The notes below the pieces were generated by a model. It made no database searches. It saw only the letters and a program-made list of their open reading frames with translations, and was not told where the DNA came from. Of a stretch of DNA of 64,000 nt, positions 5,496 to 21,994 are shown piece by piece. A program made the translations under genes and the position numbers. The stretch comes from Rhodobacter sp. 24-YEA-8. GTDB lineage: Bacteria > Pseudomonadota > Alphaproteobacteria > Rhodobacterales > Rhodobacteraceae. The stretch is taken from the NCBI RefSeq assembly GCF_900105075.1, contig NZ_FNSK01000001.1, forward strand, positions 2,825,001 to 2,889,000, read 5' to 3'. Position 1 is the first letter of the stretch. Each line of letters opens with the position of its first letter.

Positions 5496-6182
5496 ATGGA
5501 TGACCGCCTGATCGTCGCGATGGATGTGCCGAATGTGGTGGCGGGCCTCGCGCTGGCCGACCGGCTGGGCGAGGCGGTCGATTTCTACAAGATCGGGCTT
5601 GGAATGCTGACCGGCGGCGGCCTGGCGCTTGCGCTGGAACTGAAGAACGAGCGCGACAAGCGGGTATTCCTCGACCTCAAGCTTTTTGACATCGGCCAGA
5701 CCATCGAGAATGCGGTGAAGGGGATTGCCGGGCTTGGCCTCGATTTCCTCACCGTGCATGGCGACCCGCAGGTGGTGCGGGCGGCAGCGGAAGGCAAATC
5801 AGGAAGCGATCTGAAGATCCTTGCGGTGACGGTGCTGACCTCGCTCGACCGGGCCGATCTGGATGCGAATATGATCCTGTCCGGCGATATCCATGACATC
5901 ACTGTCGAACGGGCGGCGCGGGCGCTCGCCGCCGGCGCCGATGGCGTCATCGCCAGCCCGCAGGAGGCGGCGCGGATCCGTGCGCTGCCCGAGGCCGTTG
6001 GCAAGCTGATTGTCACCCCCGGCGTGCGTCCGGCAGGGGCTGCGACCGGCGATCAGAAGCGGATCGCCACGCCCGCCGCCGCGATCCGCGACGGTGCCGA
6101 TCATATCGTGGTGGGTCGCCCGATCTGGGCCAGTGCCGATCCGGCAGCAGCGGCCCGTGCGATCATTGCGGAACTGCCCTGA
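5496..6182 (+). CDS. pyrF: Orotidine 5'-phosphate decarboxylase
   Basis: PyrF removes CO2 from OMP to give UMP, the last step of pyrimidine synthesis, in the cytoplasm. The 228-residue length fits. The catalytic D-x-K-x-x-D motif reads DLKLFDIGQT, with D60, K62 and D65. The phosphate-binding end is TPGVRP followed by GADHIVVGRPIW. The ATG at 5496 has GGAGAA 7 bp upstream; longer in-frame starts lack a ribosome site. The gene stands alone, and its last 20 bp overlap the 3' end of the convergent TetR gene. Confidence 0.97.
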   Translation: MDDRLIVAMDVPNVVAGLALADRLGEAVDFYKIGLGMLTGGGLALALELKNERDKRVFLDLKLFDIGQTIENAVKGIAGLGLDFLTVHGDPQVVRAAAEGKSGSDLKILAVTVLTSLDRADLDANMILSGDIHDITVERAARALAAGADGVIASPQEAARIRALPEAVGKLIVTPGVRPAGAATGDQKRIATPAAAIRDGADHIVVGRPIWASADPAAAARAIIAELP

Positions 6183-6831
6183 CCAGACCCTCCGCGCCAA
6201 AATGGCGGGGGAAGAATGCGGCGACGCAGACCATCAGCGTCGCCAGCGCCTCGCTTGAATCATAAGGTGACTGCATCGTCATCATATCGAGCCAGACGCC
6301 CTCGGTCGTGACCCTGAGAACCCGCGCCGTGCGGGTCGGATTGACCGCATAGCCGTGATCTTCATTCATCCGGCGGCAAAGCGCTTCCAGATAGTGGTTA
6401 TACTGCTCGTCGTTTGACCCGCATTTCTCCTGGTAAAGCGGCCTCCCCGAGGTCTCGCCCCAGAACGAACACCAGGCCGCCAGCCGCCCCGGCGTGCAGA
6501 TCTCGGGCCGGAAATCGGCGGCCAGCATCGCGTAAAGCTGCTCTGCCGCGCCTGCCCCCGCTGCCTCGACCGCCCCGGTCCAGTTCTGCCGGTATTCCTC
6601 GGACAGATAGAGCAGCGTTTCCGACAGCAGGTTCTCCTTGGTCTGGAAGTGGAAATTCACCAGCCCATGCGACAGCCCGGCCATCCGCGCCACCTCGGAC
6701 ATCGTCGTCCTGGAATAGCCGAAACGCGCGATGGTCTCGATCGTCGCCTCGATCAGCTGCACGCGCCGGGCATCGCGCGGCATCTTGCGGGGCTGGGAAT
6801 CAGGGGTATCGGTCTGCTCGATTGCGGCCAT
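6163..6831 (-). CDS. TetR-family regulator, BetI-like
   Basis: The 222-residue protein has an N-terminal TetR helix-turn-helix (about residues 25-75: TIETIARFGYSRTTMSEVA then GLSHGLVNFHFQTKENLL) and a ligand domain like BetI, the choline-sensing repressor of glycine-betaine genes (matching patterns LAAWCSFWGE and GVWLDMM). It is divergent from the aminotransferase operon with 130 bp between them, so it most likely represses that operon and itself. A palindrome in the gap is a candidate operator. The BetI-like effector domain hints at a quaternary-amine-like inducer, but that is inference. Its 3' end overlaps pyrF by 20 bp. Confidence 0.85.
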   Translation of the reverse strand: MAAIEQTDTPDSQPRKMPRDARRVQLIEATIETIARFGYSRTTMSEVARMAGLSHGLVNFHFQTKENLLSETLLYLSEEYRQNWTGAVEAAGAGAAEQLYAMLAADFRPEICTPGRLAAWCSFWGETSGRPLYQEKCGSNDEQYNHYLEALCRRMNEDHGYAVNPTRTARVLRVTTEGVWLDMMTMQSPYDSSEALATLMVCVAAFFPRHFGAEGLVRAVPQ

Positions 6832-6898
6832 CTGCGTCTCCGTTCGCGGCCAGTCTTGCCTGAAAACCCGCTGCGTTAAAAGCGGTTTCAGATTCTGA

Positions 6899-6914
6899 TT
6901 GACAGTTCAGTCAA
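6899..6914. promoter_or_regulatory. Candidate operator of the BetI-like repressor
   Basis: TTGACAGTTCAGTCAA is an inverted repeat (TTGAC/GTCAA arms) in the gap between the divergent TetR gene and the catabolic operon. It resembles the TTGA...TCAA palindromes known for BetI. It also contains a TTGACA-like -35 element on the plus strand, so binding would block promoter access. Confidence 0.5.
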
Positions 6915-6961
6915 AATAATTCGACAGTTTGAAGAGCCGCAACAGGAACAGGTTTTACGCC

Positions 6962-8320
6962 ATGACCACCGCGCCGCACCGCAAGCTGGAAAAGTCGAAC
7001 ACCCATTTCAAAAAGGCGCTGACGAAGCTGCCGCTGGGTGTGGCCTCGACCTTCCGATACTGGGGTGACGAGCGGACAATCTATGTCCATCACGGCAAAG
7101 GTGGCCGGACCTGGGATATCGACGGCAATAATTACGTCGATTACCGGCTGGGCTACGGTCCGGCGATCCTCGGCTATGCAGACGACCGGGTCGATGCCGC
7201 CGCCCGCCGCGGGATGGAGGTCGGCGGCGTCTTTGCCCTCTCGACCGAGCGCGAGCTTGCCGTGGCCGAACGCATCTCGAAAATGGTCCCGGCGGCAGAG
7301 CTGGTGCGGTTTTCCAATTCCGGCACCGAGGCGGTGATGTCGGCTTTGCGGCTGGGGCGCGCCTATACGGGGCGCGAGAGCTATCTGCTGGTCGAGGGCG
7401 GCTATCACGGGTTGTTCGATGCCGCCATGTGGATGGCGAATATGGATGAATGGGACGCGAAATCGAACAGCGACCCGGAGGTGGTGCCCTATGGTCAGGG
7501 CATCCCGAACACCGTCAAACAGCTCGCCCATCTGGTGCCGATGAACGATATGCAGCGGCTGGAGGACACCTTTCGCCGCCATGGCGACGATATGGCCGCG
7601 ATGCTGATCGAGCCGATTCAAGGGAATTGCTGCGGCATTTCGGCCCGCAAGGATTACGTGCAGCTGGCCCGCAGACTCTGCGACCAATATGGTGTTCTGC
7701 TGATCATCGACGAGGTGAAGACCGGCTTTCGTGTGGGCAAGGGTGGCATCCAGGGCATCCTCGGCGTGAAGCCCGATATCACCACCTTCGCGAAAGCCGT
7801 CGGCAATGGCTACCCGATCTCGCTGGTCGCAGGCCGCGAGGATATCATGCGCACCTTCCGCTATGGCGGCGCATCGCATGGTGGCACCTATACCGCCCAT
7901 TCCGTCAGCCTCGCCGCCGCCGAGGAAACGCTGCGCATCCTCGACGAGACCCCCGCGCTTGAGACGCTGGCGACTTACGGCAGCCGGCTGAAGGATGGCA
8001 TCTCCGAGATCCTTTCGGCGCGCGACATCACGCATAGTTTCTCGGGCCATCCGTCGATGTTCGGCATCTTCTTCGCGCCCGAGCCGCCGGACAATTACCG
8101 TGCCTGGAAGACCTCGGATTATTCGTTCTACGACCGGATGGCCTGGTATCTGCACGATCTGAACATCATCGTTGAACCGGACAGCCGCGAGCCCTGGTTC
8201 ATGTGTGAGGCGCATGGGCTGGATGAAAGCTGCTATACCGACACCATCCGCGCGGTCGAAACAGCGGTCGATCTGACGCTTCGGGACCAGGCCGAAGGCA
8301 AGCTGGACGCCGCCGAATGA
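6962..8320 (+). CDS. Class III PLP aminotransferase (glutamate-semialdehyde-mutase-like)
   Basis: A 452-residue fold-type I class III aminotransferase. Key parts: FSNSGTEAV (118-126) binding the PLP phosphate, IIDEVKTGFR with D250 and E251, and the Schiff-base lysine K278 in TTFAKAVGNGYP. The family covers GSA aminomutase and omega-amine or amino-acid transaminases; the sequence alone does not give the substrate. The ATG at 6962 is preferred over a TTG 33 bp upstream and has AGGAACAGG before it. It is first in a long operon and overlaps the next gene by 4 bp. Within the locus it probably removes a primary amino group from the substrate or a breakdown product. Confidence 0.9.
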   Translation: MTTAPHRKLEKSNTHFKKALTKLPLGVASTFRYWGDERTIYVHHGKGGRTWDIDGNNYVDYRLGYGPAILGYADDRVDAAARRGMEVGGVFALSTERELAVAERISKMVPAAELVRFSNSGTEAVMSALRLGRAYTGRESYLLVEGGYHGLFDAAMWMANMDEWDAKSNSDPEVVPYGQGIPNTVKQLAHLVPMNDMQRLEDTFRRHGDDMAAMLIEPIQGNCCGISARKDYVQLARRLCDQYGVLLIIDEVKTGFRVGKGGIQGILGVKPDITTFAKAVGNGYPISLVAGREDIMRTFRYGGASHGGTYTAHSVSLAAAEETLRILDETPALETLATYGSRLKDGISEILSARDITHSFSGHPSMFGIFFAPEPPDNYRAWKTSDYSFYDRMAWYLHDLNIIVEPDSREPWFMCEAHGLDESCYTDTIRAVETAVDLTLRDQAEGKLDAAE

Positions 8321-9948
8321 GCTACGATGCTCTTATCCTCGGCGCGGGGCATAACGGGCTTGTCACCGCCTGCTACCTCGCCCGTGCCGGGATGAAGGTG
8401 CTGGTGATCGAGAAAAACGACTGGGTTGGCGGGGCCGCCGTGTCGCGGGAACTGACCCCCGGCTTCGCCTATTCCAACTGCTCATATGTCGCCTCGCTGT
8501 TCCGCCCCGAGATCATGCGCGACTTGGAGCTGCCGCGCCACGGCTTGCAGATCCTGCCCTATGAGGGCGGCGCCGTGTTCCAGGAGGGCGGCGGCTATCT
8601 CGGCATGTTTCGCGACCATGATGCGAACCGCCGCGAATTTGCCCGCCACGCGCCCCGCGATGCCGAAGCCTATGACACCTATTCCCGCGATGTGCTGCGC
8701 TATTGCCGTTTCATCCGCCCGATGCTTTTGCGCACGCCGCCCGATCCGGCGCGGTTCCGCCCGCGTGACATCGGCGAGCTGATATTCATCGGCAAACAGG
8801 TCTCGGGCCTGTCGGAACGCCAGATCGCTGAAATGGTCCGTTTCTGGACCATGTCGATCTCTGACTATCTCGACCACTATTTTGAAAGCCCGGTGATCAA
8901 GGCCTATCTCGCGGTTTCCGCAATCATCGGCACCGCGCTTGGGCCGATGTCGCCCGGATCGGCCTATGTTCTGCTGCACCATTACATGGGCGATGTGGAT
9001 GGCAATATCGGCGCCTGGGGCTTTGCGCGCGGCGGTATGGGGTCAATCACCAAAGCACTGTCCTCATCGCTGCAGGCCTCGGGCGGCGAGATCCGCACCG
9101 GCGCTCCGGTCGCCCAGGTGCTGGTGAAAAACGGGCGCTCCGTCGGTGTCGTGCTGGAAAACGGCGACGAGATCCGGGCAAAGCGCGTGATTTCGAACAT
9201 GGATGTCAAACGCACCATGCTGAAACATGTCGCCGAGGCCGAGCTTCCCGGCGACTATGTGGCGTCAGTGAAGAAGTTCAAAACGCGTGGCTCCTCGGGC
9301 AAGCTGAACATCGCGCTGGATGGGGTGCCGAAATTCGCCGCCCTGCCCGAGGGATCACCCGCGATCAAAGGCGATCTGCATTTCACCGATTCCATCGAAA
9401 AGATGGAGCGCGCCTATGACGACTGGAAGGCGGGTCACTTCAGCCGCGATCCGTTCCAGGATGTGATGATCCCCACCATGATTGATCCGACCATGACGCC
9501 GCCGGGCAAGCATTTCATGTCCTGTTTCGTGCAATATGCGCCGCCAAAGATCGGGGGCCTGGCAGAGGGGGGCCGCGACTGGACCGACGCTGACCGTGAC
9601 GCTTTCGGCGAGGCCTGTCTGAACCAGATCGAACGCTACGCTCCGGGGTTCCGAAACCTCGTCCGTCATGTCGAGATCCGCACCCCGCGCGAGCTGGAGG
9701 CCGAGGTTGGTCTGACCGAGGGCAATATCTTCCAGGGGGAACTGACCTTCGACCAGCTTTTGTTCAACCGTCCGGTCCCCGGATATGCCAATTACCGAAC
9801 GCCCGTTCGTGATCTGTGGATCTGCGGCTCTTCGACCCATCCCGGCGGCGGTGTGATGGGGGCGCCAGGCCGCAATGCGGCGGCGGAAATCCTGCGTGAT
9901 GCGAAACTCTCACCAAAGGACATGAGCGATGCCTGGCCCGTCCTTTAG
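8317..9948 (+). CDS. CrtI/PYROXD2-like FAD-dependent oxidoreductase 1
   Basis: The 543-residue flavoprotein starts with a Rossmann dinucleotide site (GAGHNG, residues 9-14) and ends with the C-terminal FAD motif of the phytoene-desaturase/PYROXD2 group (DLWICGSSTHPGGGVMGAPG). Enzymes of this fold oxidise C-N, C-C or C-O bonds using flavin; carotenoid activity is unlikely because no carotenoid genes are nearby. Its start overlaps the aminotransferase stop by 4 bp (ATGA). It is followed by a distant paralogue, so the pair may act on successive intermediates or form a complex. Substrate unknown. Confidence 0.88.
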   Translation: MSYDALILGAGHNGLVTACYLARAGMKVLVIEKNDWVGGAAVSRELTPGFAYSNCSYVASLFRPEIMRDLELPRHGLQILPYEGGAVFQEGGGYLGMFRDHDANRREFARHAPRDAEAYDTYSRDVLRYCRFIRPMLLRTPPDPARFRPRDIGELIFIGKQVSGLSERQIAEMVRFWTMSISDYLDHYFESPVIKAYLAVSAIIGTALGPMSPGSAYVLLHHYMGDVDGNIGAWGFARGGMGSITKALSSSLQASGGEIRTGAPVAQVLVKNGRSVGVVLENGDEIRAKRVISNMDVKRTMLKHVAEAELPGDYVASVKKFKTRGSSGKLNIALDGVPKFAALPEGSPAIKGDLHFTDSIEKMERAYDDWKAGHFSRDPFQDVMIPTMIDPTMTPPGKHFMSCFVQYAPPKIGGLAEGGRDWTDADRDAFGEACLNQIERYAPGFRNLVRHVEIRTPRELEAEVGLTEGNIFQGELTFDQLLFNRPVPGYANYRTPVRDLWICGSSTHPGGGVMGAPGRNAAAEILRDAKLSPKDMSDAWPVL

Positions 9949-11467
9949 TCGCACTTCCTCTGATGTGATCGTCATCGGGGCCGGGCCGAATGGCCTCGCC
10001 TGCGCCCACCGCCTGGCCTCGAAAGGCCGCAAGGTGACGCTGATCGAGGCCGATGCCGAGCCCGGCGGCGGTATCCGTGCGCTGCCGGATCTGGCTCCCG
10101 GCCTGACGCCCTCGCTCGCGCATCTCGTCTGGCAGCTCGACCCGCGCGTCGAGGCGGCGATGGACCTGACCCGCCACGGGCTCAGCTGGGAGGCGACAGA
10201 TATCCCGACCACGGTGATCGGGCGCGAGGGAAATCTGGTGATCCGGGGCGCGCTGACCGATGGCCCGGATGCCGCCGCCTGGAAGGCGCTACACCAGCGT
10301 CTGATGTCCTTTGCGGCGGCGCTGGAACCCTTCCGGCGCATGGCCCCGCCACGCCTGCAGGCGGGCGGCAATTCCTGGGGCAGGCTTGCGAAGAACCTGA
10401 TCGGTATCCGCGCGCTTGGTACGAAGGATTTTCGCGAATTGCTGCGGGTCATCCTGATCAACGCCCATGATGTGGCGCAGGATGAACTGTCTGACCCCCG
10501 GTTGCGCGCCGCCCTGTGTTTCGATGCCGTGCTGGGCGCCTGGGCGGGCCCGCGCTCTCCCAATACGCTGATTTTGCTTCTGGACCGGCTGGCCGGAGAA
10601 ATCACAGGACGCAAGGGTGCACTCGGGCTGCCCAAAGGTGGCATGCCCGCGCTGGCCCAGGCCATGACAAATGCTGCGACCGCAGCAGGTGTTTCGCTGC
10701 GCAGCAATTCCCGCGTCAGCCGAATCACCGTCGCCGATGACCGCGTCACAGGCGTCGCCCTGGCGAGCGGCGAAACCCTCGTCGCGCCGGTGGTGATCTC
10801 GGCGATCGGGCCAAAGGCAACGATCCTGTCCCTGGCTGGCCCGGAGCATTTCGACACCGGCCTTGTCACCGCTTTGCGCCATCAGAAATCGCGGGGCGGC
10901 ACTGCAAAACTGCATCTCGCACTTTCCGCCCGCCCGGATTTTCAGGGTGCCGACCTGCGTTCCCGCCTGCTGCTGGCCGCAGATGAGCATGAGGTTGAAA
11001 CCGCCTTCAACCCGGTCAAATATGGCGAGGTGCCTGACCGCCCGGTGATGGAAATCGTGATCCCCACGGCATTTTCCGGCGGCACTGGTCCGCATCTTCT
11101 GTCGGCCAATGTGCAATTCGCACCCCATGCGCCAAGGGCGGGCGAAGACGCGGCGCGTGAGGCGATGCTCAAAGCCTGCCTCGCGCGCCTGGAGGAGGCG
11201 TCGCCGGGGATCAGCGCACTGATCACCCGCGCCGGGATCCTGATGCCCTATGATATCGAACGACAGTTCGGCATGGCGGGGGGCAACTGGCATCATGGCG
11301 AGCTGGCGGTTGAACAGATGCTCTTCAACCGCCCTATCGCGCCGCTGTCGCGCTATGCAACACCGCTGAAAGGGCTCTGGCTTACCGGCGCAGGAACCCA
11401 TCCGGGCGGCATGTCGGGCGCCGTCGGCTGGAACGCGGCTGACGCAGTACTGGAGGCGAGAACATGA
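9929..11467 (+). CDS. CrtI/PYROXD2-like FAD-dependent oxidoreductase 2
   Basis: A 512-residue protein with the same layout as its upstream neighbour: GAGPNG at 17-22, a central substrate domain, and the C-terminal FAD motif GLWLTGAGTHPGGMSGAVGW. The two proteins share motifs but are clearly divergent, so this is an old duplication or separate recruitment. The ATG at 9929 overlaps the previous gene by 20 bp in another frame, and the next gene starts in a 4-bp ATGA overlap, so translation is coupled. Likely an amine or alcohol dehydrogenase-type step in the same pathway; substrate unknown. Confidence 0.87.
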   Translation: MPGPSFSRTSSDVIVIGAGPNGLACAHRLASKGRKVTLIEADAEPGGGIRALPDLAPGLTPSLAHLVWQLDPRVEAAMDLTRHGLSWEATDIPTTVIGREGNLVIRGALTDGPDAAAWKALHQRLMSFAAALEPFRRMAPPRLQAGGNSWGRLAKNLIGIRALGTKDFRELLRVILINAHDVAQDELSDPRLRAALCFDAVLGAWAGPRSPNTLILLLDRLAGEITGRKGALGLPKGGMPALAQAMTNAATAAGVSLRSNSRVSRITVADDRVTGVALASGETLVAPVVISAIGPKATILSLAGPEHFDTGLVTALRHQKSRGGTAKLHLALSARPDFQGADLRSRLLLAADEHEVETAFNPVKYGEVPDRPVMEIVIPTAFSGGTGPHLLSANVQFAPHAPRAGEDAAREAMLKACLARLEEASPGISALITRAGILMPYDIERQFGMAGGNWHHGELAVEQMLFNRPIAPLSRYATPLKGLWLTGAGTHPGGMSGAVGWNAADAVLEART

Positions 11468-12651
11468 GCGCATTGAGCCATTTCACCACCCCCCTTGCTC
11501 AGACCCCGTTCCACCCGCGCACCAAAGCCGCGAACCGCCTGCAGGGCTGGGCGCCCTGGGCCGGGTACATGGCCGCCACCTGTTTCGGCGACAGCACGAT
11601 GGAGCATACGGCGATCCGCAACGCGGCAACGCTTTATGACATCTCGCCCATGGTGAAATACCGCATCACAGGCGCGGATGCGGTGGCTTATCTCAACCGT
11701 CTGACGCTGCGCGATGTGGGGCGGCTGGCAGTGGGTCAGATCCATTACACGGCCTGGAGCGATGATCTGGGCAGGGTGATGGATGATGGCACCGTCTTTC
11801 GCCTTGGGCCGGATGATTTCCGGCTGTGCTGCCAGGAACGCCACCTGCCCTGGCTGCTCGACAGTGCCTGGGGGCTGGATGTGCGGCTCCGGGACGAGAC
11901 CGAAGATCTCGCCGCGCTGGCGCTGCAGGGGCCGGTCTCGGCGACGGTTCTGGCTCAGGCGGGGTTTGACATCCAGGCGCTGAAACCCTTCCGGCTGGCG
12001 ATTTTCCCGTTCCGATCCGGCGAGGTGATGATTTCGCGCACCGGATTTACCGGCGATCTGGGCTATGAACTCTGGATCAGCCCCGATCTCGCCCTGCCGC
12101 TCTGGGATCACCTGATGCAGGCAGGCGCGCTTTACGGGCTGATGCCGGTCGGGTCCGAGGCGGTGATGCTTGCGCGGCTTGAAGCCGGGTTCATCACGAC
12201 CGGCATGGATTTTGTCCCTGTTCAGCATGCGGTGCGCGAAGACCGGGCGCGTTCGCCCTTCGAAATCGGTCTGGACTGGATGATCGCCTGGGATAAGGGG
12301 CATTTCACCGGGCGCCGCGCCCTGATGGCCGAGCGCGACGGCAAATCATCGAAATGGGCGCTGGTCGGGCTCGACATCCCCGGCAATGTCAGTGCCGAGG
12401 GCGCGATCCTCTACTTCGACAAGCGCCGCGAGGCGGGGTTCATCACCGCCGCCTGCTGGTCTCCGACATTAAAACGCAACATCGCCATCGCCCAGGTCGA
12501 GGCTCGCCATGCCAGCTGCGATCAGCTCTGGGTCGAAATCTACGCGCTGCGCGAGCTTCAATATCAAAAGCTTATGCTGCCGGTCACAAAAACCACCCGG
12601 CCGTTTTTCGCCCCCGAACGCCGCCGTACCACCCCGCCGGGGAGGTTCTGA
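11464..12651 (+). CDS. GcvT-like aminomethyltransferase / folate-dependent demethylase
   Basis: The 395-residue protein has the GcvT/DMGDH C-terminal fold. The folate-site signature SDDLGRVMDDGTVFRL (99-114) matches the conserved aspartate region of glycine-cleavage T-protein, and LALQGPVSATVL and RTGFTGDLGYELW are further family blocks. Family members transfer a one-carbon unit from an N-methyl or aminomethyl group to tetrahydrofolate; stand-alone versions in catabolic operons usually handle methyl groups released from N-methylated amines or DMSP. No gcvH or gcvP is nearby, so this is not the glycine cleavage operon. Overlaps its neighbours by 4 bp and 1 bp. Strong support for a methylated substrate. 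Confidence 0.88.
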   Translation: MSALSHFTTPLAQTPFHPRTKAANRLQGWAPWAGYMAATCFGDSTMEHTAIRNAATLYDISPMVKYRITGADAVAYLNRLTLRDVGRLAVGQIHYTAWSDDLGRVMDDGTVFRLGPDDFRLCCQERHLPWLLDSAWGLDVRLRDETEDLAALALQGPVSATVLAQAGFDIQALKPFRLAIFPFRSGEVMISRTGFTGDLGYELWISPDLALPLWDHLMQAGALYGLMPVGSEAVMLARLEAGFITTGMDFVPVQHAVREDRARSPFEIGLDWMIAWDKGHFTGRRALMAERDGKSSKWALVGLDIPGNVSAEGAILYFDKRREAGFITAACWSPTLKRNIAIAQVEARHASCDQLWVEIYALRELQYQKLMLPVTKTTRPFFAPERRRTTPPGRF

Positions 12652-13817: not shown

Positions 13818-15043
13818 CCATATTTCCCGATACTCCCTTGCGCTCTGACCCGATCCCGACAGGCTGGGACCGGCGCGGATTGCCCGCCTGGACCTATCAT
13901 TCCCGGGCCCTGTTCGATCTGGAACGTGAAGAGGTTTTTCTGACCCATTGGCAGGTCGCAGGCCATATCTCCGACATTCCGGCGCCGGGCGACTGGCTGT
14001 CCTTTGACCTTCTGGGCGAGCGCGCGGTGATCCTCCGGGGCCAGGATGGCGAGATCCGCGCCTTCATGAATCTCTGTCGCCATCGCGGCGCGCGGGTGGT
14101 GGATGGCGCCCAGGGCAAATGCCGGGGCGCGCTGGTCTGCCCCTTCCATGGCTGGGTCTATAACCTTGACGGCACGCTTCGCGGCGTCTCGCGCCCTGAA
14201 ACCTTCGGCGATGGCCTGGAGAAATCCGCCTTCGGGCTGAAACCGCTGGAGCTGGAGATTTTCGCGGGCTTCCTGTTCCTGCGCTTTCGCCCCGGGCCTC
14301 AGCCGGCGGTGCGTGACCTCCTTGCGCCCTATGCGCCCGATTTCACCGCCTGGAGCGGCGAGAGGCTGATGCCGCTCGATATCTCCGGCTGGTCGGCGGA
14401 GCTTGCAGTGAACTGGAAATCGGTGCGCGATGTGGACAATGAGGGCTATCACGTCGCCCTCGCCCATCCGTCTTTGCAGGATCTGTACGGCCGCGATTAC
14501 CGCGACCTCTACCTGCCCGGTGGCCTGCATGTCAGCTACGGCTTTTACGGCGACCGCCCGGGGCGGAGCTGGTCGGTGAAGAACTATGTCAGGCATTCGC
14601 CGCAGCGCGCAGATCTGCCACCGCATCTGCAACGGAACTGGGCCTATTACGGCCTTTTTCCGAATACGGTGATCGCCTTCACGCCTGAAAGCGCGCAATT
14701 CTACCATGACCTGCCGCTGTCACCGGGCAAAACGCTCCTGACCGGCCGCCAGTATCGGCTGGCCGATGAAGACCGCCAGACCCGCGTCGCCCGCTATCTC
14801 GCGCAGCGGATCGACCGCGACACCTCGGCCGAAGATCAGCAGCTGTCGATCTGGTCGAACGAATCAATGCGGTCTGAAAATTTCGAAGGCTTCCACCTCT
14901 CGGACCTCGAATACGGGTTGCGCCGCCATCATGACCAGCTGCGCAGCCTGCTTCCGGTGATGTCCCGCTGCGCCGCACCCGCAGAGGGTGAAATGCGCGC
15001 CCTCAACAAGGATTTGCTTTGTGCAAAGGCAAGCCGGGCATAG
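13814..15043 (+). CDS. Rieske oxygenase alpha subunit 2 (GbcA/CntA-like)
   Basis: A 409-residue Rieske oxygenase, distinct from its neighbour. [2Fe-2S] ligands: C88-x-H90 and C109-x2-H112. Iron site in NWKSVRDVDNEGYHVALAHP, with H213 and H218 and a bridging Glu210. A probable third ligand is the Asp in SAEDQQLSIW. Overlaps the previous gene by 4 bp (ATGA). Two such subunits in tandem suggest either two successive oxidations (for example two N-demethylations) or a hetero-oligomer. It is followed after 42 bp by the binding protein of the ABC importer, so oxidation and uptake are co-transcribed. Confidence 0.9.
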   Translation: MTIFPDTPLRSDPIPTGWDRRGLPAWTYHSRALFDLEREEVFLTHWQVAGHISDIPAPGDWLSFDLLGERAVILRGQDGEIRAFMNLCRHRGARVVDGAQGKCRGALVCPFHGWVYNLDGTLRGVSRPETFGDGLEKSAFGLKPLELEIFAGFLFLRFRPGPQPAVRDLLAPYAPDFTAWSGERLMPLDISGWSAELAVNWKSVRDVDNEGYHVALAHPSLQDLYGRDYRDLYLPGGLHVSYGFYGDRPGRSWSVKNYVRHSPQRADLPPHLQRNWAYYGLFPNTVIAFTPESAQFYHDLPLSPGKTLLTGRQYRLADEDRQTRVARYLAQRIDRDTSAEDQQLSIWSNESMRSENFEGFHLSDLEYGLRRHHDQLRSLLPVMSRCAAPAEGEMRALNKDLLCAKASRA

Positions 15044-15085
15044 GCTTTCTTAAAAATCAGACAATAAAACGCCAGGGAGACTAAG

Positions 15086-16204
15086 ATGAAGCTGACCCGT
15101 CGCCACGCACTTACCGCCCTTTCCGGTGCCGTTCTCGCCGGACCGCTGTCTGCGCCCTTCATCCGCCCCGCCCGCGCAAGCGCCGGCTCGGTCAATGTCT
15201 ATAACTGGTCGGATTATATCGGCGAGACCACAATTGCCGATTTCGAGGCCGAGACCGGAATCTCGGTCATCTATGACCTTTACGCCAGCTCCGAAGAGGT
15301 GGATGCCAAAATGCTGGTCAGCGGCACCGGTTATGACCTCGTACTGCAATCGGGCATGTCCTATCCGCGGATGGTGGCGGCTGGTGTCTATCAGAAACTC
15401 GATCGCTCCAGATTGCCGGGATGGAGCAATCTCGACCCCGATATCCTGAGGATCGTCGAAGATTATGATCCCGGCTCTGAACATGGCGCCCCCTATATGT
15501 GGGGCTCCGTTGGCATGGCCTACAATATGCAGATGGTACGCGCGCGGCTGCCTGATGCTGATCTGAACAGCCTTGATGTTCTGTTCAAGCCCGAGAATGC
15601 GTCGAAACTGGCAGATTGCGGGATATCGGTTCTCGATAGCCCGACTGATGCGGGCTATATGATGCTGAAATATCTGGGCCTCGACCCCAATACCGCCGGC
15701 GCCGCCGAATATGCGAAAATGGCCGAGGCTTTTGCGCCGATCCGGAAATATATCACCACCTTTGACAATGCGAATTACCTCAACGCGATCCCCAATGGCG
15801 AGCTTTGCGTGATCAATTCCTGGTCCGGTGATTACGGCGTCGCCAAGGCCCGCGCCGCTGAGGCCGGGATCGAGATGGAACTGGCCTATTTCGTCCCCGA
15901 AACCGGTGCGCCGGCCTGGTTCGATCTCTGGGGCATTCCGGCCGATGCGCCGAATCTGGAAAATGCCTACATATTTCTTGATTATCTGTTGCGGCCAGAA
16001 GTGGCAGCGGCCTGCACCAATTTCACCGGCTATGCCAATGCCAATAAGGCGGCGACCCCGCTGGTCGATCCGGAAATTGCCGGCGACCCCGCGATCTATC
16101 CCGATGACGAGACTCTGTCGCGTCTTTTCACCACGCGCCCGATGACCGAAGACCAGGAGCGTGACCTGAACCGCGCCTGGCAGGCGATCAAGAGTGGCAG
16201 CTGA
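15086..16204 (+). CDS. PotD/PotF-like amine-binding periplasmic protein
   Basis: The 372-residue solute-binding protein has a Tat-like signal (TRRHALTALSGAV, residues 4-16, then cleavage near ARASA). VNVYNWSDYIGETTIADFE closely matches the E. coli putrescine protein PotF. Pocket residues known in PotF appear at equivalent spacing: W41-S42-D43, an acidic residue at D188, W246 with D249 (SWSGDYG), and W278 with D280 (WFDLW). These carboxylates hold ammonium groups, so the ligand is probably cationic. It heads the transporter part of the operon; ribosome site GGGAGA upstream. Confidence 0.92.
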   Translation: MKLTRRHALTALSGAVLAGPLSAPFIRPARASAGSVNVYNWSDYIGETTIADFEAETGISVIYDLYASSEEVDAKMLVSGTGYDLVLQSGMSYPRMVAAGVYQKLDRSRLPGWSNLDPDILRIVEDYDPGSEHGAPYMWGSVGMAYNMQMVRARLPDADLNSLDVLFKPENASKLADCGISVLDSPTDAGYMMLKYLGLDPNTAGAAEYAKMAEAFAPIRKYITTFDNANYLNAIPNGELCVINSWSGDYGVAKARAAEAGIEMELAYFVPETGAPAWFDLWGIPADAPNLENAYIFLDYLLRPEVAAACTNFTGYANANKAATPLVDPEIAGDPAIYPDDETLSRLFTTRPMTEDQERDLNRAWQAIKSGS

Positions 16205-16217
16205 AGCGAGGCCTGTC

Positions 16218-17333
16218 ATGTCAGAGCCCGTCATGTCGGAAAATGCCTCTTTCATCCGTATCGAGGGCGTCTCCAAACGCTTTGGCCAGTTCGAGGCGGT
16301 TCGGGACGTCAACCTGACCATTGGCAAGGGCGAGATCTTCGCCCTGCTCGGCGGCTCAGGCTGCGGCAAGACCACGCTTTTGCGGATGCTGGCGGGCTTC
16401 GAGACCCCGACATCGGGGCGGATCTTCATCGACGGCCAGGACATGGCCGATACGCCCCCCTGGGATCGCCCGGTCCATATGATGTTCCAGAGCTATGCGA
16501 TTTTTCCGCATATGAGCGTCGAGAAGAACATCGCCTATGGGCTGAAACATGAAAAGATGACCGCCGCCCAGCGCCGGGCCCGTGTCGAGGAAATGCTGGC
16601 CCTGGTGCAGCTGACCCAGTTCGCCAAAAGGAAACCGCATCAGATTTCCGGCGGGCAACGCCAGCGCGTGGCGCTCGCCCGGGCGCTGGCCCGGCAACCC
16701 AAGGTGCTGCTGCTGGACGAACCGCTTGCGGCGCTCGACAAGAAACTGCGCGAACATACCCAGTTCGAACTGATGTCCATTCAACAGCGCACCGGCGTCA
16801 CCTTTGTCGTGGTCACGCATGACCAGGAAGAGGCCATGACCCTCGCCGACCGCATCGCCGTGATGGACAAGGGCGAGGTCAGACAGGTCGGCCCCGCAAC
16901 CGAGATTTACGAATACCCCAATTCCCGCTTTGTCGCGGGCTTTATCGGCGCGATCTCGACCTATCCGGCCCGCGTCATCCGCCTGACCGGAGATCTCGCA
17001 GAAGTCGACATCCCCGCGATGGGCGGCACCTTCGCCGCCCGCAAATCCTCCGGCCTGGTCGAGGGCCAGCAGATCACCATCGCCCTGCGCCCCGAAAAGA
17101 TCACCATCTCGAAAACCTGCCCCGATGCAGTGAATGTGGTCGAAGGCCAGGTGAAAGACCTCGCCTATTTCGGCAAAGACAGCCTCTACCGAGTCACCCT
17201 GCCCGGCGGCGATCTGATTTCCGTCCATGCCGTCAACGCGCGGCGCGCCTCGGAATCCGGCCGCCCCGCCGATTGGGACGACCGTGTCTGGCTCTCCTTC
17301 GAGCCCGCCTCAGCCATAATCCTCACGGATTAA
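16218..17333 (+). CDS. PotA/PotG-like ABC importer ATPase
   Basis: A 371-residue ATP-binding subunit for the amine importer. Walker A GGSGCGKT is at 45-52, followed by the Q-loop (MMFQSYAIFPHM), signature SGGQRQR, Walker B VLLLDEPLAALD and the H-loop VTHDQEEAM. The C-terminal third is a TOBE regulatory domain (RPEKITISK). The start is the ATG at 16218; the N-terminus contains a tandem PVMSE repeat giving another in-frame ATG at 16233, so the exact start is not certain. It follows the binding-protein gene after 13 bp. Confidence 0.93.
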   Translation: MSEPVMSENASFIRIEGVSKRFGQFEAVRDVNLTIGKGEIFALLGGSGCGKTTLLRMLAGFETPTSGRIFIDGQDMADTPPWDRPVHMMFQSYAIFPHMSVEKNIAYGLKHEKMTAAQRRARVEEMLALVQLTQFAKRKPHQISGGQRQRVALARALARQPKVLLLDEPLAALDKKLREHTQFELMSIQQRTGVTFVVVTHDQEEAMTLADRIAVMDKGEVRQVGPATEIYEYPNSRFVAGFIGAISTYPARVIRLTGDLAEVDIPAMGGTFAARKSSGLVEGQQITIALRPEKITISKTCPDAVNVVEGQVKDLAYFGKDSLYRVTLPGGDLISVHAVNARRASESGRPADWDDRVWLSFEPASAIILTD

Positions 17334-17366
17334 GGAGGCATGACCATGCCCATCAGAACCAAAGCC

Positions 17367-17428
17367 CTCTTCCTCCTGACACAAATACTCCCGGGGGGTG
17401 CAGAAGGCAGGCAGCTCTGCGCACCCCG
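17367..17428 (+). repeat. Dispersed extragenic element, copy 1
   Basis: Between the ATPase and permease genes lies CTTCCTCCTGACACAAATAC followed by TCCCGGGGGG. Nearly the same core (CTTCCTC-TG...AAATACTCC..GGGGGG) recurs at about 62287-62321, and a looser inverted copy at about 40682-40712. G/C-rich arms follow the core. Similar short elements are common between genes in Rhodobacterales. Confidence 0.55.
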
Positions 17429-17449
17429 CCCCAACACACGAGGCCAGCC

Positions 17450-18370
17450 ATGAAAACGCTCGCCTCCTGGTTCCATCGCCGCGGCTGGCGCGATCTGATC
17501 ATCGGGATCCCCTATCTCTGGCTGATCGTCTTCTTTCTGATCCCCTTCCTCATCGTCGTGGCGATGAGCCTCGCGACCCGCACCCCCACCGCGCCGCCCT
17601 TTGGTTATGGCGGCGAGAACCCGATCCTGAATTTCGAAGGCTATGGCCGCCTTTTCACCGAGACCCTCTATATCCGCGCCTTTATCACCTCGCTGATGAA
17701 TGCGGCCGTCGCCACGGTGATCTGCCTGCTGATCGGCTATCCGATGGCGCTCGGCCTTACCCGGGTTTCGAAATCCTGGCGCAATATCCTCCTCATGCTG
17801 GTGATCCTGCCCTTCTGGACCTCGTTCCTTCTGCGCGTCTACGCCTGGATGGGGATGATGGGGCGGAACTCCTGGTTCAACGGGCTGCTCACAGACATCT
17901 GGAATTTCCTCACCCCGCAATCTTACGCGCTGACCTCGATCCCGATGATGAACAGCAACTTCGCGGTGGTCCTCGTCATGGTCTATTGCTACCTGCCCTT
18001 CATGATCCTGCCGCTTTACGCCAATCTCGAACGGCTCGATCCGGTGCTGGACGAGGCCGCGATGGATCTCGGCTCAAGGCCTTTCCAGGTCTTCCGCGAT
18101 GTCACCCTGCCGCAATCGATACCGGGCATCATCGCGGGCGCCATGCTCGTCTTCATCCCGGCAGCGGGAGAGCTGGTGATCCCCGCCCTCGTCGGCAATC
18201 CCTCTTCGCCGATGATCGGCCGCATCATCTCGGATGAATTCGCGCAGGTCAGGGACTGGCCCATGGCCTCGACCGTCGCAGTGGCGCTTCTGATCCTGAT
18301 GGTTGGACCGACCATGCTCTATTCGCGATATCAGCAAAAAGCCGAGGGCCGGGCGGAGGAGCGCCCATGA
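17450..18370 (+). CDS. PotB/PotH-like ABC importer permease
   Basis: A 306-residue inner-membrane permease with about six hydrophobic segments (first at roughly 16-40). The EAA loop that docks the ATPase reads DEAAMDLGSRPFQVFRDVTL. The ATG at 17450 has GAGG 6 bp upstream. There is a 116-bp gap after the ATPase gene, filled by a short dispersed repeat, which is unusual inside an otherwise tightly packed operon. The stop overlaps the second permease by 4 bp. Confidence 0.92.
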   Translation: MKTLASWFHRRGWRDLIIGIPYLWLIVFFLIPFLIVVAMSLATRTPTAPPFGYGGENPILNFEGYGRLFTETLYIRAFITSLMNAAVATVICLLIGYPMALGLTRVSKSWRNILLMLVILPFWTSFLLRVYAWMGMMGRNSWFNGLLTDIWNFLTPQSYALTSIPMMNSNFAVVLVMVYCYLPFMILPLYANLERLDPVLDEAAMDLGSRPFQVFRDVTLPQSIPGIIAGAMLVFIPAAGELVIPALVGNPSSPMIGRIISDEFAQVRDWPMASTVAVALLILMVGPTMLYSRYQQKAEGRAEERP

Positions 18371-19206
18371 CCCGCCGCCCCGTCTTTCTGATCACCGTGA
18401 TGTGCTTTGGTTTCGCCTTTTTCTACATCCCGATCCTTTCGATGATCATCTATTCCTTCAACGAAAGCCGGCTGGTGACGGTCTGGGGCGGGTTCTCAAC
18501 CAAATGGTATGCCTCTCTGTTTTCCAACCGCCAGATTGGCGCGGCGCTCTGGCTTTCGTTGCAGATCGCGCTGATCTCGGCCTCGGTCGCGACGGTGCTT
18601 GGCGCCATGGCCGGGATCACGCTGGCGCGGTTTCGCAAATTCCGGGGCCGCACCGCCTTTTCCGGCATGGTCACAGCACCGCTGATCATGCCCGAGGTGA
18701 TCACAGGCATCTCGCTGCTGATCTTCTTCACGCTGCTTGCGAACTGGATCGGCTGGCCCGGGCAGCGCGGTTTCACCACGATCACGCTGGCGCATATCAC
18801 CTTCTCGATGGTGTTCGTCACTACCGTGGTCCATTCGCGGATGATCCAGATGGACCGCTCGATCGAAGAGGCCGCGATGGATCTCGGCTCGCGGCCCTGG
18901 CAGGTGCTGAAGGACGTGACCCTGCCGGTGATCTCGCCCGCGCTGCTGTCGGGCTGGCTGCTGGCCTTCACCATCTCGCTTGATGATGTGGTGATCACCA
19001 CCTTCGTGATGGGGCCGGGATCGACCACGCTTCCCTTGCTGATCTGGTCCAAGGTCAAGCTGGGCGTCACGCCCGATATCAACGCGCTCGCCACGCTGAT
19101 CGTGGTGATTGTGGGGATCTGCGTTGCCATTGCCGGCTGGCTGATGAGCCGGGCCGAAAGGCGCCGCCTCGCCGAAGAACGCCTCGCTTACCGGAGCAAC
19201 GGATGA
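18367..19206 (+). CDS. PotC/PotI-like ABC importer permease
   Basis: The 279-residue partner permease has about six membrane segments starting with FLITVMCFGFAFFYIPILS. Its EAA loop is EEAAMDLGSRPWQVLKDVTL. SLDDVVITTFVMGPGSTTLP is the typical end of PotC/PotI proteins. It overlaps PotB by 4 bp upstream and the cupin gene by 4 bp downstream, tying the importer to the downstream enzymes. Confidence 0.92.
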   Translation: MTRRPVFLITVMCFGFAFFYIPILSMIIYSFNESRLVTVWGGFSTKWYASLFSNRQIGAALWLSLQIALISASVATVLGAMAGITLARFRKFRGRTAFSGMVTAPLIMPEVITGISLLIFFTLLANWIGWPGQRGFTTITLAHITFSMVFVTTVVHSRMIQMDRSIEEAAMDLGSRPWQVLKDVTLPVISPALLSGWLLAFTISLDDVVITTFVMGPGSTTLPLLIWSKVKLGVTPDINALATLIVVIVGICVAIAGWLMSRAERRRLAEERLAYRSNG

Positions 19207-20063
19207 CGGATCTCAGAACCGGCGCGCTATGGCTTGCCCTGGCTGAGCCCGTCGGCCCGCCCGGCTCCGGGCGTCGCCGCTACGGCGCGGCAATGGCGCT
19301 CCACGCAACGGGCGCGCTGAGCACCGCCCAGCTTGAGGCTTACCGCGAGGCGGCCACCGCCGATGCCGTCGAGCCATTCCGCGTCATGGCGGATCGCGGG
19401 CTCGCGCCGCCCGCTCCGCCCACGCCCGATGCCGCCGCCCGCCTCGCGCATCTCATGGCCGAGACCGACCGCTGCCTTGCCGCCCATTTCGGCCCGGGGA
19501 TTGCCGAGACCCGCACGCTTCTCGCCCCCGCCCTGTTGCAAAGGCCAGCCCCACGCCCCGGGCTTGCGAACCCGGTGGTCGAAACCCATATGGCAACGGC
19601 ATTGGAGGCCGTGAAAACAATCGACCCGACACTGGCCGCCGCCATCGCCGCCGTGACCGAAGATCTGACCTGGATCACCTATGACGCCTATCCGCCCGAT
19701 CAGATCGGGCCGCATTTCGCCCGTTCTCACGCTTTTTGCTCGCTGATCGGCGATGGCGCACCCTGGGCAGCACAGGATTTCGACCTTGGGCTTTTCCTCG
19801 TCGCGCCAGGCATTCTCTACCGCGACCATGCCCATCCCGCGCCCGAGCTTTACCTGCCGCTCACCGGCCCGCATCGCTGGCGTTTCACCCCTGGCGGAGC
19901 CTTTCGCACGCTCCCCGCGCTGCAGCCGGTCTCGAACCCGGCGCTAAAGCCACATGCGACCCTGACAGGGGCCGTGCCCTTCCTCAGCCTCTTCGCCTGG
20001 ACCCGCGATGTCGACCAGCCCGCCCATGTTCTGCCGGCCAGCGACTGGAACCTTTATGAGTGA
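19203..20063 (+). CDS. DMSP-lyase-family (DddQ/DddL-like) cupin
   Basis: The 286-residue protein has a C-terminal cupin whose metal motif fits the DMSP lyase group. In LYRDHAHPAPELYLPLTG, Y206, H211, E215 and Y217 keep the spacing I recall for DddQ (Y120, H125, E129, Y131), and H251 lies 40 residues after H211 (38 in DddQ). DMSP lyases release acrylate and dimethylsulfide by beta-elimination, but the superfamily also holds proteins with other or no known substrates. The N-terminal ~150 residues are helical-looking and Ala-rich. Its place between an amine importer and an amidohydrolase argues for a lyase or isomerase acting on the locus substrate, not necessarily DMSP. No signal peptide. Confidence 0.7.
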   Translation: MTDLRTGALWLALAEPVGPPGSGRRRYGAAMALHATGALSTAQLEAYREAATADAVEPFRVMADRGLAPPAPPTPDAAARLAHLMAETDRCLAAHFGPGIAETRTLLAPALLQRPAPRPGLANPVVETHMATALEAVKTIDPTLAAAIAAVTEDLTWITYDAYPPDQIGPHFARSHAFCSLIGDGAPWAAQDFDLGLFLVAPGILYRDHAHPAPELYLPLTGPHRWRFTPGGAFRTLPALQPVSNPALKPHATLTGAVPFLSLFAWTRDVDQPAHVLPASDWNLYE

Positions 20064-21678
20064 CCACCTGCTGATCAATGGCCGCGTCCATACGATGGAT
20101 CCGGCTTTGCCGCAGGCCCGCGCGATCCTGATCCGCGACGGCATTATCGCGGCGGTCGGTGGCGATGATATCCCCGCGCTGGCCAAACCCGGCGCACGGA
20201 TCACCGATCTTGGCGGGCGGCTCGTCCTGCCGGGGTTTCAGGATGCCCATACCCATCTTCTCTCGGGCGGCACCGATCTCGCCACCGCCGCACAGCTTTA
20301 CGAGGCCGAAGATTCCGACAGGCTGGCGCAGCTGATCCGCAGCCATGCCGCAGCTCATCCCGACCTGCCTTTGCTGGTCGGTGCCGGCTGGCAGCCGGGG
20401 ATTTTCGGCGACCATAACCTCACTGCCGCCTGGCTTGATCCGCTGACCGGTTCCCGCCCGGCGCTGATCTATGATTCCAGCTTCCACTCTGCCTGTTTCA
20501 ACACGGCGGCACTGGCGATGGCCGGGATCACCGCTGACACGCATGCCCCGCCCAATGGTCATATCCTGAGGGATACTGCCGGCCAGGCCACCGGCATGTT
20601 GCATGAAGACGCGATCCCCTGGGCGCTGGAACGCCTGCCCGGTTTCACCGATGACCAGTTGCTTGCGGGGCTGATGGCAGGCCAGGCCCATGCCAATCGC
20701 CATGGCATCACCGGCGTGATCGACGCAAAAATCACCGCGACAGAGGCGCGGATCTATGCCCGTGCCGCGCGCGAAAACCTACTCACCCTGCGCGTCGCCG
20801 GGGCGGCGCATGTGTCCGAGGCCGATACTCCGGAAACCGCACTGGCACGGCTTAGCGCGCTTCGCACCGCCCATCTGGGCCCGGATTTCCATATCAATGC
20901 CGCGAAATTTTTCATGGATGGTGTGTTCGAGAACCGCAGCGCCGCCTGCCTCGCGCCCTATGCCGACGAAGCGGGCGGCAACGCGCCCTGCATGTTCCGC
21001 CATGATCAGACGCTGGCGCTGATGACCGCGCTGGATGCCGCGCGGTTCCAGATCCATGTCCATGTGATCGGCGATGCCGCCTGCTCCCGCGCGCTGGACG
21101 GGCTGGAGGCGGCGCTGGCCGCCAATGGCCCCTGGCCCGCCAGCCATCAGATCACTCATCTGCAACTGGTCGCCCCCGCCGATTTTCCCCGCCTCGCGCG
21201 GCTCGCAATGGCGAATATTCAGCCGCTCTGGGCGCGATTCGACCCGAAGATCCCCGATATCGCGCTCGACATGATCGGGCCCGCCCGCCTGCCCACGACC
21301 TACGCGTTTCGTGACCTGCTGAAACTCGGAGCCGGTTTCGCCCTTTCGTCTGACTGGCCGGTCTCGACCCTGAACCCGTTCGAGATCATCGAAACCGCCA
21401 TTACCCGCCAGGCACGCACCAAAGATCATCCCGGCCCGCCCTTTCTGCCCGATCAGGCACTGAGTGTGACCGAATGTGTGGCAGGCTATACGATTAACGC
21501 CGCCCGCGCCTCGTGGCGTGACGGCTATAGCGGCCGGCTCTCTCCCGGTTTTTCTGCCGATCTGATCGTGACGGATCAGGATATTTTCAGCTGCGCCCCC
21601 GCGCAGATTTCTGCCACCCGCGTCCTTCTGACCCTGTTCCGGGGCCAGGAGGTCTGGCGTGATCCGTATTTCCGCTGA
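20056..21678 (+). CDS. YtcJ-like metal-dependent amidohydrolase
   Basis: A 540-residue Amidohydro_3 family enzyme. It starts with the small beta domain (MSDHLLINGRVHTMDPALP) and the metal motif GFQDAHTHLL (H65, H67). Later blocks include HVHVIGDAACSRALDGLE, SDWPVSTLNPFEIIE and the C-terminal GRLSPGFSADLIVTDQD. Relatives hydrolyse amides, N-formyl groups or cyclic C-N bonds; substrates are mostly unknown. The ATG at 20056 overlaps the cupin stop by 8 bp. It is the last gene of the catabolic locus and could release an amide- or formyl-linked product. Confidence 0.88.
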   Translation: MSDHLLINGRVHTMDPALPQARAILIRDGIIAAVGGDDIPALAKPGARITDLGGRLVLPGFQDAHTHLLSGGTDLATAAQLYEAEDSDRLAQLIRSHAAAHPDLPLLVGAGWQPGIFGDHNLTAAWLDPLTGSRPALIYDSSFHSACFNTAALAMAGITADTHAPPNGHILRDTAGQATGMLHEDAIPWALERLPGFTDDQLLAGLMAGQAHANRHGITGVIDAKITATEARIYARAARENLLTLRVAGAAHVSEADTPETALARLSALRTAHLGPDFHINAAKFFMDGVFENRSAACLAPYADEAGGNAPCMFRHDQTLALMTALDAARFQIHVHVIGDAACSRALDGLEAALAANGPWPASHQITHLQLVAPADFPRLARLAMANIQPLWARFDPKIPDIALDMIGPARLPTTYAFRDLLKLGAGFALSSDWPVSTLNPFEIIETAITRQARTKDHPGPPFLPDQALSVTECVAGYTINAARASWRDGYSGRLSPGFSADLIVTDQDIFSCAPAQISATRVLLTLFRGQEVWRDPYFR

Positions 21679-21757: not shown

Positions 21758-21994
21758 ATGTATCCGCTCCATCTCTTTCTCCGGCTCGAAACCGGCACCG
21801 GACGGGACGACTGGCTTCTCCTCAGCGTGGCGGCGGCGGCGCTGACAACCTTTATAGGCATCTGGCTGAGTTCGGGCGGCGCGGAACAGATCACGCTCGG
21901 TCTGCGCGGCGTCATCTCGGCCGCGGTGAATGAAATCGGCCGCGAGGAAGGGCCAGTGCCCGACCTGCCGCCAGGAGGGGAGGACATACCGTGA
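21758..21994 (+). CDS. Small one-helix membrane protein, probable Flp-type pilin
   Basis: This 78-residue protein has a short N-terminus (MYPLHLFLRLETGTGRDDW) then one hydrophobic helix (WLLLSVAAAALTTFIGIWL, residues 19-37). Many Rhodobacterales Flp variants have a GAVTVDWVVLTAA-type sequence, and the DW-L-L-x-AA pattern here resembles that. The canonical Flp Glu-5/Tyr-6 pair is not evident. It lies first in the tad gene set, and its stop overlaps the GTG of cpaB by 4 bp, the expected place for a pilin-like subunit. A small accessory membrane protein is the alternative. Confidence 0.55.
   Translation: MYPLHLFLRLETGTGRDDWLLLSVAAAALTTFIGIWLSSGGAEQITLGLRGVISAAVNEIGREEGPVPDLPPGGEDIP

Follow-up and report, generated by a model that had tools for sequence, protein, structure and literature searches.

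A conserved operon of Rhodobacter sp. 24-YEA-8 with a proposed role in the uptake and oxidative breakdown of an N-methylated cation

We analyzed a stretch of 64,000 nucleotides (here, the window) from the 5.01-Mb genome of Rhodobacter sp. 24-YEA-8 (contig NZ_FNSK01000001.1, positions 2,825,001 to 2,889,000), in which twelve genes on the + strand (6962 to 21678) form an operon facing a divergent tetR gene on the - strand (6163 to 6831) across a gap of 130 bp. This operon is a real, conserved gene set whose arrangement goes beyond chance, the same order being kept in 5 of 27 relatives, the five coming from five genera. With modest confidence, we favor the reading that it imports and oxidatively dismantles a small N-methylated, polyamine-like cation, the one-carbon (C1) unit passing to folate and the amine being transaminated. 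This cation is probably quaternary; a methylated diamine, e.g., N,N,N-trimethylputrescine, would be the best fit to the importer, as a specific proposal that we consider unlikely. Besides an aminotransferase (AT3), two flavoproteins (FAD1 and FAD2) and an amidohydrolase, the predicted proteins include a PotFABC importer, two Rieske oxygenases (RieA and RieB), a GcvT-like protein and a cupin, the last four with catalytic residues that appear intact, and the divergent TetR gene is accompanied by a candidate operator. The novelty would lie in the unusual set of enzymes used for methylated-amine catabolism, the scanned parts of which come from known superfamilies. A bolder proposal, tentative and on the doubtful side, is that FAD1, FAD2 and GcvT make up an unrecognized class of folate-linked amine demethylase, with a CrtI-fold pair in place of the usual flavin domain, in the first pathway for N-methylated polyamine-like cations.

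Gene order, conservation and candidate operator

All thirteen reading frames were open at the positions given by the initial annotation of this locus, apart from corrected starts for rieA (12651), potB (17450) and the amidohydrolase gene (20056), and its description of twelve co-directional genes facing a BetI-like TetR gene was thus confirmed. The junctions, said to be packed with overlaps of 1 to 20 bp, overlap to that extent in 8 of 11 cases, the remaining three being gaps (rieB-potF, 42 bp; potF-potA, 13 bp; potA-potB, 116 bp). Family scans covered ten of the thirteen proteins, which agree by family with the component list proposed earlier, and the identities of PotA, PotB and PotC were taken from tblastn matches to relatives and the annotation of one relative. 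Among the families listed (the best 25 for AT3, FAD1 and FAD2), no curated NCBIfam-type cut-off was reached by any of the ten scanned proteins.

Within the Rhodobacterales, RieB (E ≤ 1e-60) was present in 28 of 390 genomes, from 18 of 139 genera, and FAD1 (E ≤ 1e-140) in 25, counts that hinge on both limits. The two occurred together in 23 genomes, RieB alone in 5 and FAD1 alone in 2, and 360 genomes had neither; the one-sided Fisher p value, uncorrected for kinship, is 4e-30. In 22 of the 23 genomes the pair lies within 20 kb on one contig, and in the 23rd (G314) it is split over two contigs. The initial annotation had called for a check of co-occurrence in other Rhodobacterales, and the neighborhood did prove to be conserved: in the 20 kb around RieB, fetched for 27 of the 28 genomes (all except the window), the arrangement tetR-AT3-FAD1-FAD2-gcvT-rieA-rieB-potF-potA-potB-potC-cupin was kept in order and orientation in five (L037, L038, L040, L041 and L042), of which L037 belongs to the genus of the window. 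Locus L039 holds the operon without AT3 and cupin, and the sets of the other 21 are partial or rearranged. Fuscovulum ytuae (L064) carries the whole set plus the amidohydrolase, with a methyltransferase gene behind. Across the five complete relatives, identity to the window was 77 to 83% for AT3 and FAD1 and 49 to 57% for FAD2 and the cupin. The FAD1 of the window also shares 97% identity with a protein recorded under Gemmobacter sp. 24YEA27, which suggests a host of the Gemmobacter/Pseudogemmobacter kind.

Beyond the order, named genomes were scanned with the FAD1 alignment; at least 588 of 593 pattern matches were confirmed and the best 80 loci were kept, of which 50 exceed 21 kb and the others end at contig ends. 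Since the named and unnamed locus sets overlap (L082 with L039), the loci taken together do not make a fully independent sample. In these best 80 loci, the marker scan detected FAD2 in 73, gcvT in 72, tetR in 64, a potA-type ATPase in 62, rieB in 35, a monoamine oxidase-like gene in 27, rieA in 10 and the cupin in 7. Class III aminotransferases were represented by AT3 (17) and two other types, AT_b (43) and AT_c (4), and there were further an S-adenosylmethionine (SAM) methyltransferase (39), an aldehyde dehydrogenase (6), and proteins of the dimethylglycine dehydrogenase (DMGDH) type (2) and Oxidored_FMN type (2). A module of tetR, FAD1-FAD2-GcvT, a class III aminotransferase, RieB and a Pot-type importer extends to the Rhizobiales and to gammaproteobacterial metagenome-assembled genomes (MAGs). 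The Shinella, Mesorhizobium and Rhizobium loci mostly have AT_b and another binding protein. In Kiloniella, Aestuariispira and the gammaproteobacteria, the aminotransferase is AT3, AT_b or AT_c, and some of these loci also encode an aldehyde dehydrogenase, an acyl-CoA dehydrogenase and a CoA ligase. One MAG record titled Exiguobacterium profundum (L079) encodes a FAD1 80% identical to that of the window along with tetR and all eleven core markers; its species label is probably wrong.

The regulator (6163 to 6831, - strand) combines TetR_N (PF00440) with a BetI-type C-terminal domain (PF13977). It scored 91.1 bits against the BetI model (TIGR03384), below the cut-off of 201.3, and a BetI-controlled choline operon was rejected on that ground. 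The candidate operator, TTGACAGTTCAGTCAA (6899 to 6914, no strand assigned), lies between tetR and AT3. TTGACNNNNNNGTCAA occurred once in the window and in 0 of 100 shuffles, and genome-wide TTGACAGNNCAGTCAA had a single exact match, with no further site at one mismatch. Two mismatches gave 25 matches (two of them the window site on both strands) versus 18 in a reversed control, and we have therefore drawn no regulon for this TetR. Among 187 loci, TTGACWGNNCWGTCAA was present in eight, namely, L179 (the window site itself), L041, L042, L070, L071, L075, L078 and L079; the seven relatives all hold the operon or part of it, and in six the site falls in the gap between tetR and the operon, L070 having no tetR match. 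The looser pattern TTGA-N6-12-TCAA was found in 34 of 78 such gaps and was missing from 44, counts that come without a chance control.

Importer and catalytic residues

In the PotF-like periplasmic binding protein (15086 to 16204, + strand, like all genes that follow), residues W41, Y44, S185, D188, W246, D249, W278, D280 and Y316 are invariant in 22 relatives and the window, and position 43 is Asp in 18 and Glu in 5 of the 23. We take the aligned positions to line the polyamine pocket of known PotF structures. The acidic and aromatic pocket residues are thus retained, in keeping with the cationic ligand suggested by the initial annotation; such an acid-rich aromatic pocket would fit a cation, and we infer that the ligand may be diamine-like rather than a betaine. 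The protein resembles the binding proteins of the PotF/SpuD polyamine importers in most pocket residues. It differs in scoring 335.1 bits against the PotF equivalog (NF007962, cut-off 636) and in having Asp in place of Glu185 and Trp in place of Phe276 (native residues and numbering as we presume them to be). The transporter is completed by a PotA-like ABC ATPase (16218 to 17333) and PotB-like (17450 to 18370) and PotC-like (18367 to 19206) permeases.

RieA (12651 to 13817) and RieB (13814 to 15043) both contain Rieske and Ring_hydroxyl_A domains. The [2Fe-2S] ligands and the two His and one Asp of the iron site, roles that we presume for the aligned positions, are kept throughout the RieA (20 plus the window) and RieB (62 plus the window) sequences. 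RieA found its best solved match in 3vca/4qup (1.6e-40, versus 3.9e-27 for CntA), which we take to be the stachydrine demethylase Stc2, and the solved structure nearest to RieB is CntA. Neither reached the GbcA cut-off (NF058607; 153.9 and 119.2 bits versus 670). According to a study of group V Rieske oxygenases (PMC7948474), E205 of CntA is the bridging glutamate of the group and position 203 divides it, Tyr or Phe marking subgroup Va (carnitine, choline and benzalkonium) and Asn marking Vb (demethylation of glycine betaine and stachydrine). The bridging Glu is present in RieA (E205, 21 of 21) and RieB (E210, 62 of 63, with Asp in one), as in Stc2 and CntA, and supports the earlier designation of both as quaternary-amine-type enzymes. 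Position 203 of RieA is aromatic, the Va mark, in all 21 sequences (Tyr, 20; Phe, 1), while the equivalent of RieB is Asp in 60 of 63 (Asp208 in the window) and Tyr in the other 3. The Asn of Vb was found in neither alignment, unlike in the host genome's own GbcA-like protein, which has Asn at this position. That protein (497.6 bits, cut-off 670) and a GbcB-like one (367.4 bits, cut-off 500) both scored below their cut-offs.

FAD1 (8317 to 9948) and its paralogue FAD2 (9929 to 11467) are flavoproteins of the Amino_oxidase/CrtI type, in the amine oxidase superfamily, and are 29% identical to each other. The structure model of FAD1 (mean pLDDT, 81.6) predicts an overall fold of the CrtI type. 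Carotenoid synthesis was considered and rejected because of the amine-type gene context and of scores below the cut-offs of TIGR02734 (238.1; FAD1, 114.4, and FAD2, 98.4) and of CrtO (NF045689, 1000; 293.3 and 146.7). Scores so far under the cut-offs, the amine-type operon and the presence of a FAD1/FAD2 pair set the two proteins apart from CrtI/CrtO desaturases and ketolases. The protein encoded next (11464 to 12651) consists of GCV_T and GCV_T_C domains and is nearest to the GcvT domain of the trimethylamine N-oxide (TMAO) demethylase Tdm. Its D107, D108 and RTG-G-GYE motif, presumably the catalytic Asp and the tetrahydrofolate site, are kept in 90 of 90 sequences and are the same as in Tdm and GcvT, and the folate C1 acceptor of the initial annotation is upheld on these residues. 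In Tdm, DMGDH and sarcosine oxidase, such a domain is fused to its partner, whereas the operon GcvT is a separate gene beside two CrtI-fold flavoproteins. A dimethylsulfoniopropionate (DMSP) demethylase was rejected for this protein at 121.8 bits versus a cut-off of 410 (NF009133).

AT3 (6962 to 8320) is a class III pyridoxal phosphate aminotransferase of the GntE/GSAM-like type, as first annotated and now borne out by the family scan. Its best NCBIfam models were GntE (NF041362; 436.6 bits versus 525) and then HemL (TIGR00713; 330.1 versus 527.3). Heme synthesis was rejected on the latter score and the amine context. The cupin (19203 to 20063) scored above the cut-off of the DMSP lyase family (PF16867), and its His209, His211, Glu215, Tyr217 and His251 align with the solved DMSP lyases, in positions that we take to be the metal ligands and catalytic Tyr. 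In an alignment of the best 120 of 335 homologues, these residues are kept in 120 of 120, except for His209 (116 of 120), and the cupin may be an active lyase, on DMSP or another compound. The Amidohydro_3 hydrolase (20056 to 21678) was found among the 27 relatives in L037 (66%), in L042 (48%) and as a weak 30% match in L045, in addition to Fuscovulum; as an accessory gene found in few relatives, it does not make the hydrolysis named in the initial annotation a core step.

Proposed function and its alternatives

In the reading that we prefer, TetR would leave its operator on binding the amine or an intermediate, and PotF would capture the cation. RieA and RieB would oxidize a carbon beside the quaternary nitrogen, in a methyl group or in the chain, with electrons supplied by an unlinked reductase. 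The tertiary or secondary amine formed in this way would be dehydrogenated by FAD1 and FAD2, with GcvT taking the C1 unit as methylene-tetrahydrofolate. AT3 would transaminate the primary amine thus set free, giving an aldehyde that unlinked enzymes oxidize further; the cupin and amidohydrolase would serve a side branch or process a late product. This scheme is weakest as to its substrate, its source of electrons and the way in which RieA, RieB, FAD1 and FAD2 divide the work.

Several observations weigh against this scheme. The Va signature of RieA suggests C-N cleavage in preference to demethylation, and RieB, by its aligned residues, appears to belong to neither Va nor Vb. The simple demethylation reading is thereby weakened, and the oxidative demethylation first ascribed to the Rieske enzymes is no more than one possible reaction. 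No Rieske reductase was found among the ten scanned operon proteins, and of the 84 loci scanned for a reductase, a set without L037 to L063, just two gave a match, the query locus among them. Unlinked candidates are present in the host genome, and in the bolder proposal named at the outset FAD1 and FAD2 might even return electrons to the Rieske enzymes. Among the folds listed, those nearest to FAD1 are CrtI-type desaturases, followed by renalase and putrescine/monoamine oxidases. In Sphingobium sp. TomTYG65 (L068:8166-10958), RieB-like and FAD1-like genes are adjacent, and the annotation around them shows neither a GcvT nor a Pot-type importer; FAD1 therefore need not be folate-linked, and this pair is possibly a minimal form of the module. 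Positions 42, 89, 91, 92, 187 and 350 of PotF vary among relatives. The complete operons of L037, L038 and L040 and that of L064 lack even the loose TTGA-N6-12-TCAA pattern, as does L039. Lastly, a SAM methyltransferase in 39 of the best 80 loci is odd for pure demethylation.

Of the alternatives, C-N cleavage as the first step is rather unlikely. RieA would hydroxylate a chain carbon, releasing trimethylamine or dimethylamine and an aldehyde, and FAD1/FAD2/GcvT and enzymes encoded elsewhere would process the methylamine or the leftover chain. The Tyr203/Glu205 pair of RieA is the signature named for CntA, choline monooxygenase and OxyBAC (PMC7948474), although RieA as a whole is nearer to 3vca/4qup than to CntA. 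Elsewhere, the host genome groups the gene of a GcvT-like protein with that of a reductase and with others (L168:9229-13192), and has a type III glutamine synthetase about 5 kb on (L168:18499-19842; 652.8 bits versus a cut-off of 469.6). The names of this gene set we take to point to dimethylamine/methylamine use, which is consistent with cleavage, whereas the operon's own GcvT and the DMGDH-type neighbors in some relatives argue for demethylation in place. Less probable again, and to be called improbable, is an entry into gamma-butyrobetaine/carnitine metabolism, in which an aminotransferase and an aldehyde dehydrogenase would turn a trimethylated diamine into 4-trimethylaminobutyraldehyde or gamma-butyrobetaine and the Rieske, flavin and GcvT proteins would act on a later betaine. 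Three loci have a carnitine 3-dehydrogenase gene in the vicinity of the module (L082, 725.5 bits; L105, 630.7; and, barely above the cut-off of 592, L148, 595.8), accompanied in L082 (34-6743) and L105 (951-7369) by BKACE, a crotonobetainyl-CoA hydratase-like protein (below cut-off), a CoA ligase and an acyl-CoA dehydrogenase. In favor, too, are the same five genes in the host genome, unlinked to the operon (L165; dehydrogenase, 746.3 bits). Against this entry, the operon has no aldehyde dehydrogenase. Three of the best 80 loci, counted without a chance control among catabolic genes that cluster in islands, are too few for carnitine chemistry to be named as the purpose of the operon.

A true lyase for DMSP, or for a sulfonio- or ammonio-propionate, in an operon for DMSP-like compounds would account for the PF16867 match and the conserved lyase residues of the cupin. 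We hold it to be very improbable, given that the cupin occurs in only 7 of the best 80 loci and never with AT_b, that the importer is of the polyamine type and that GcvT falls far short of the DMSP demethylase cut-off. Equally improbable is a biosynthetic cluster in which an amine made by the aminotransferase is methylated by a methyltransferase and tailored by the oxygenases. The SAM methyltransferase frequency agrees with this, as does a transaminase model, GntE, being the nearest to AT3 (436.6 bits versus 525), but the twelve genes encode an importer, no exporter and a GcvT-type C1 acceptor, and the host genome has no close homologue of the methyltransferase (best, 6.6e-7).

Neighboring genes and wider context

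The SAM methyltransferase (Methyltransf_11 type) adjoins tetR/FAD1 in Rhizobiales loci (L090:9010-9840) and lies behind the operon in Fuscovulum (L064:31126-31899) and L075. An aldehyde dehydrogenase was matched at 60% or more in five loci, one being the query itself, and at 38% in L082. The DMGDH-type and Oxidored_FMN families include known amine demethylases. A DMGDH-type fusion (DAO-GCV_T) stands beside the module in L044 by family scan, with same-length frames in L043, L045 and L046 of the same genus, and BLAST matches to it occur by the module in L075, L084 and L174. The fusion was rejected as a substitute for FAD1/FAD2/GcvT in L043 to L046, where FAD1 lies about 14 kb away in the same genomes; the two of these examined (as loci L169 and L170) have FAD1-FAD2-GcvT there, and the fusion is therefore an addition. 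Oxidored_FMN proteins occur by the module in L065 and L169 (scanned) and as 27 to 31% matches in L133, L138, L170 and L174. Glutamine-synthetase-like genes near the module (L063:11592-12956, L176:14714-15913, L138:19400-20746 and L141:18794-20284) hint at gamma-glutamylation of a primary amine; the one in L141 scored below the named cut-offs, and that in L063 matched no family at E 1e-60.

The literature searched, most subscription papers being outside its reach, held no described pathway combining this gene set, as the initial annotation had stated. A study of homarine catabolism (Nat Microbiol 2026) deals, by its title, with methylated-amine catabolism in environmental bacteria and reportedly involves a smaller gene set. 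Glycine betaine demethylation in Ruegeria follows a different route, through a cobalamin-type system (PMC12478193). Public-record names of module proteins include "phytoene desaturase family" and "dimethylsulfonioproprionate lyase family", and genomes of Rhodobacterales, Shinella and Mesorhizobium therefore probably conceal an amine pathway behind incorrect names. The preferred reading, if true, would add an extra route to methylated-nitrogen turnover and give the CrtI fold a new use. With regulation as compact as a repressor and a candidate operator, the substrate should be findable by simple growth or binding tests.

An Rfam scan of the whole window returned nothing at gathering scores. Directly downstream of the operon (21991 to 25555) are unrelated frames that, judged by eye from their translations, resemble Tad/Cpa pilus genes.

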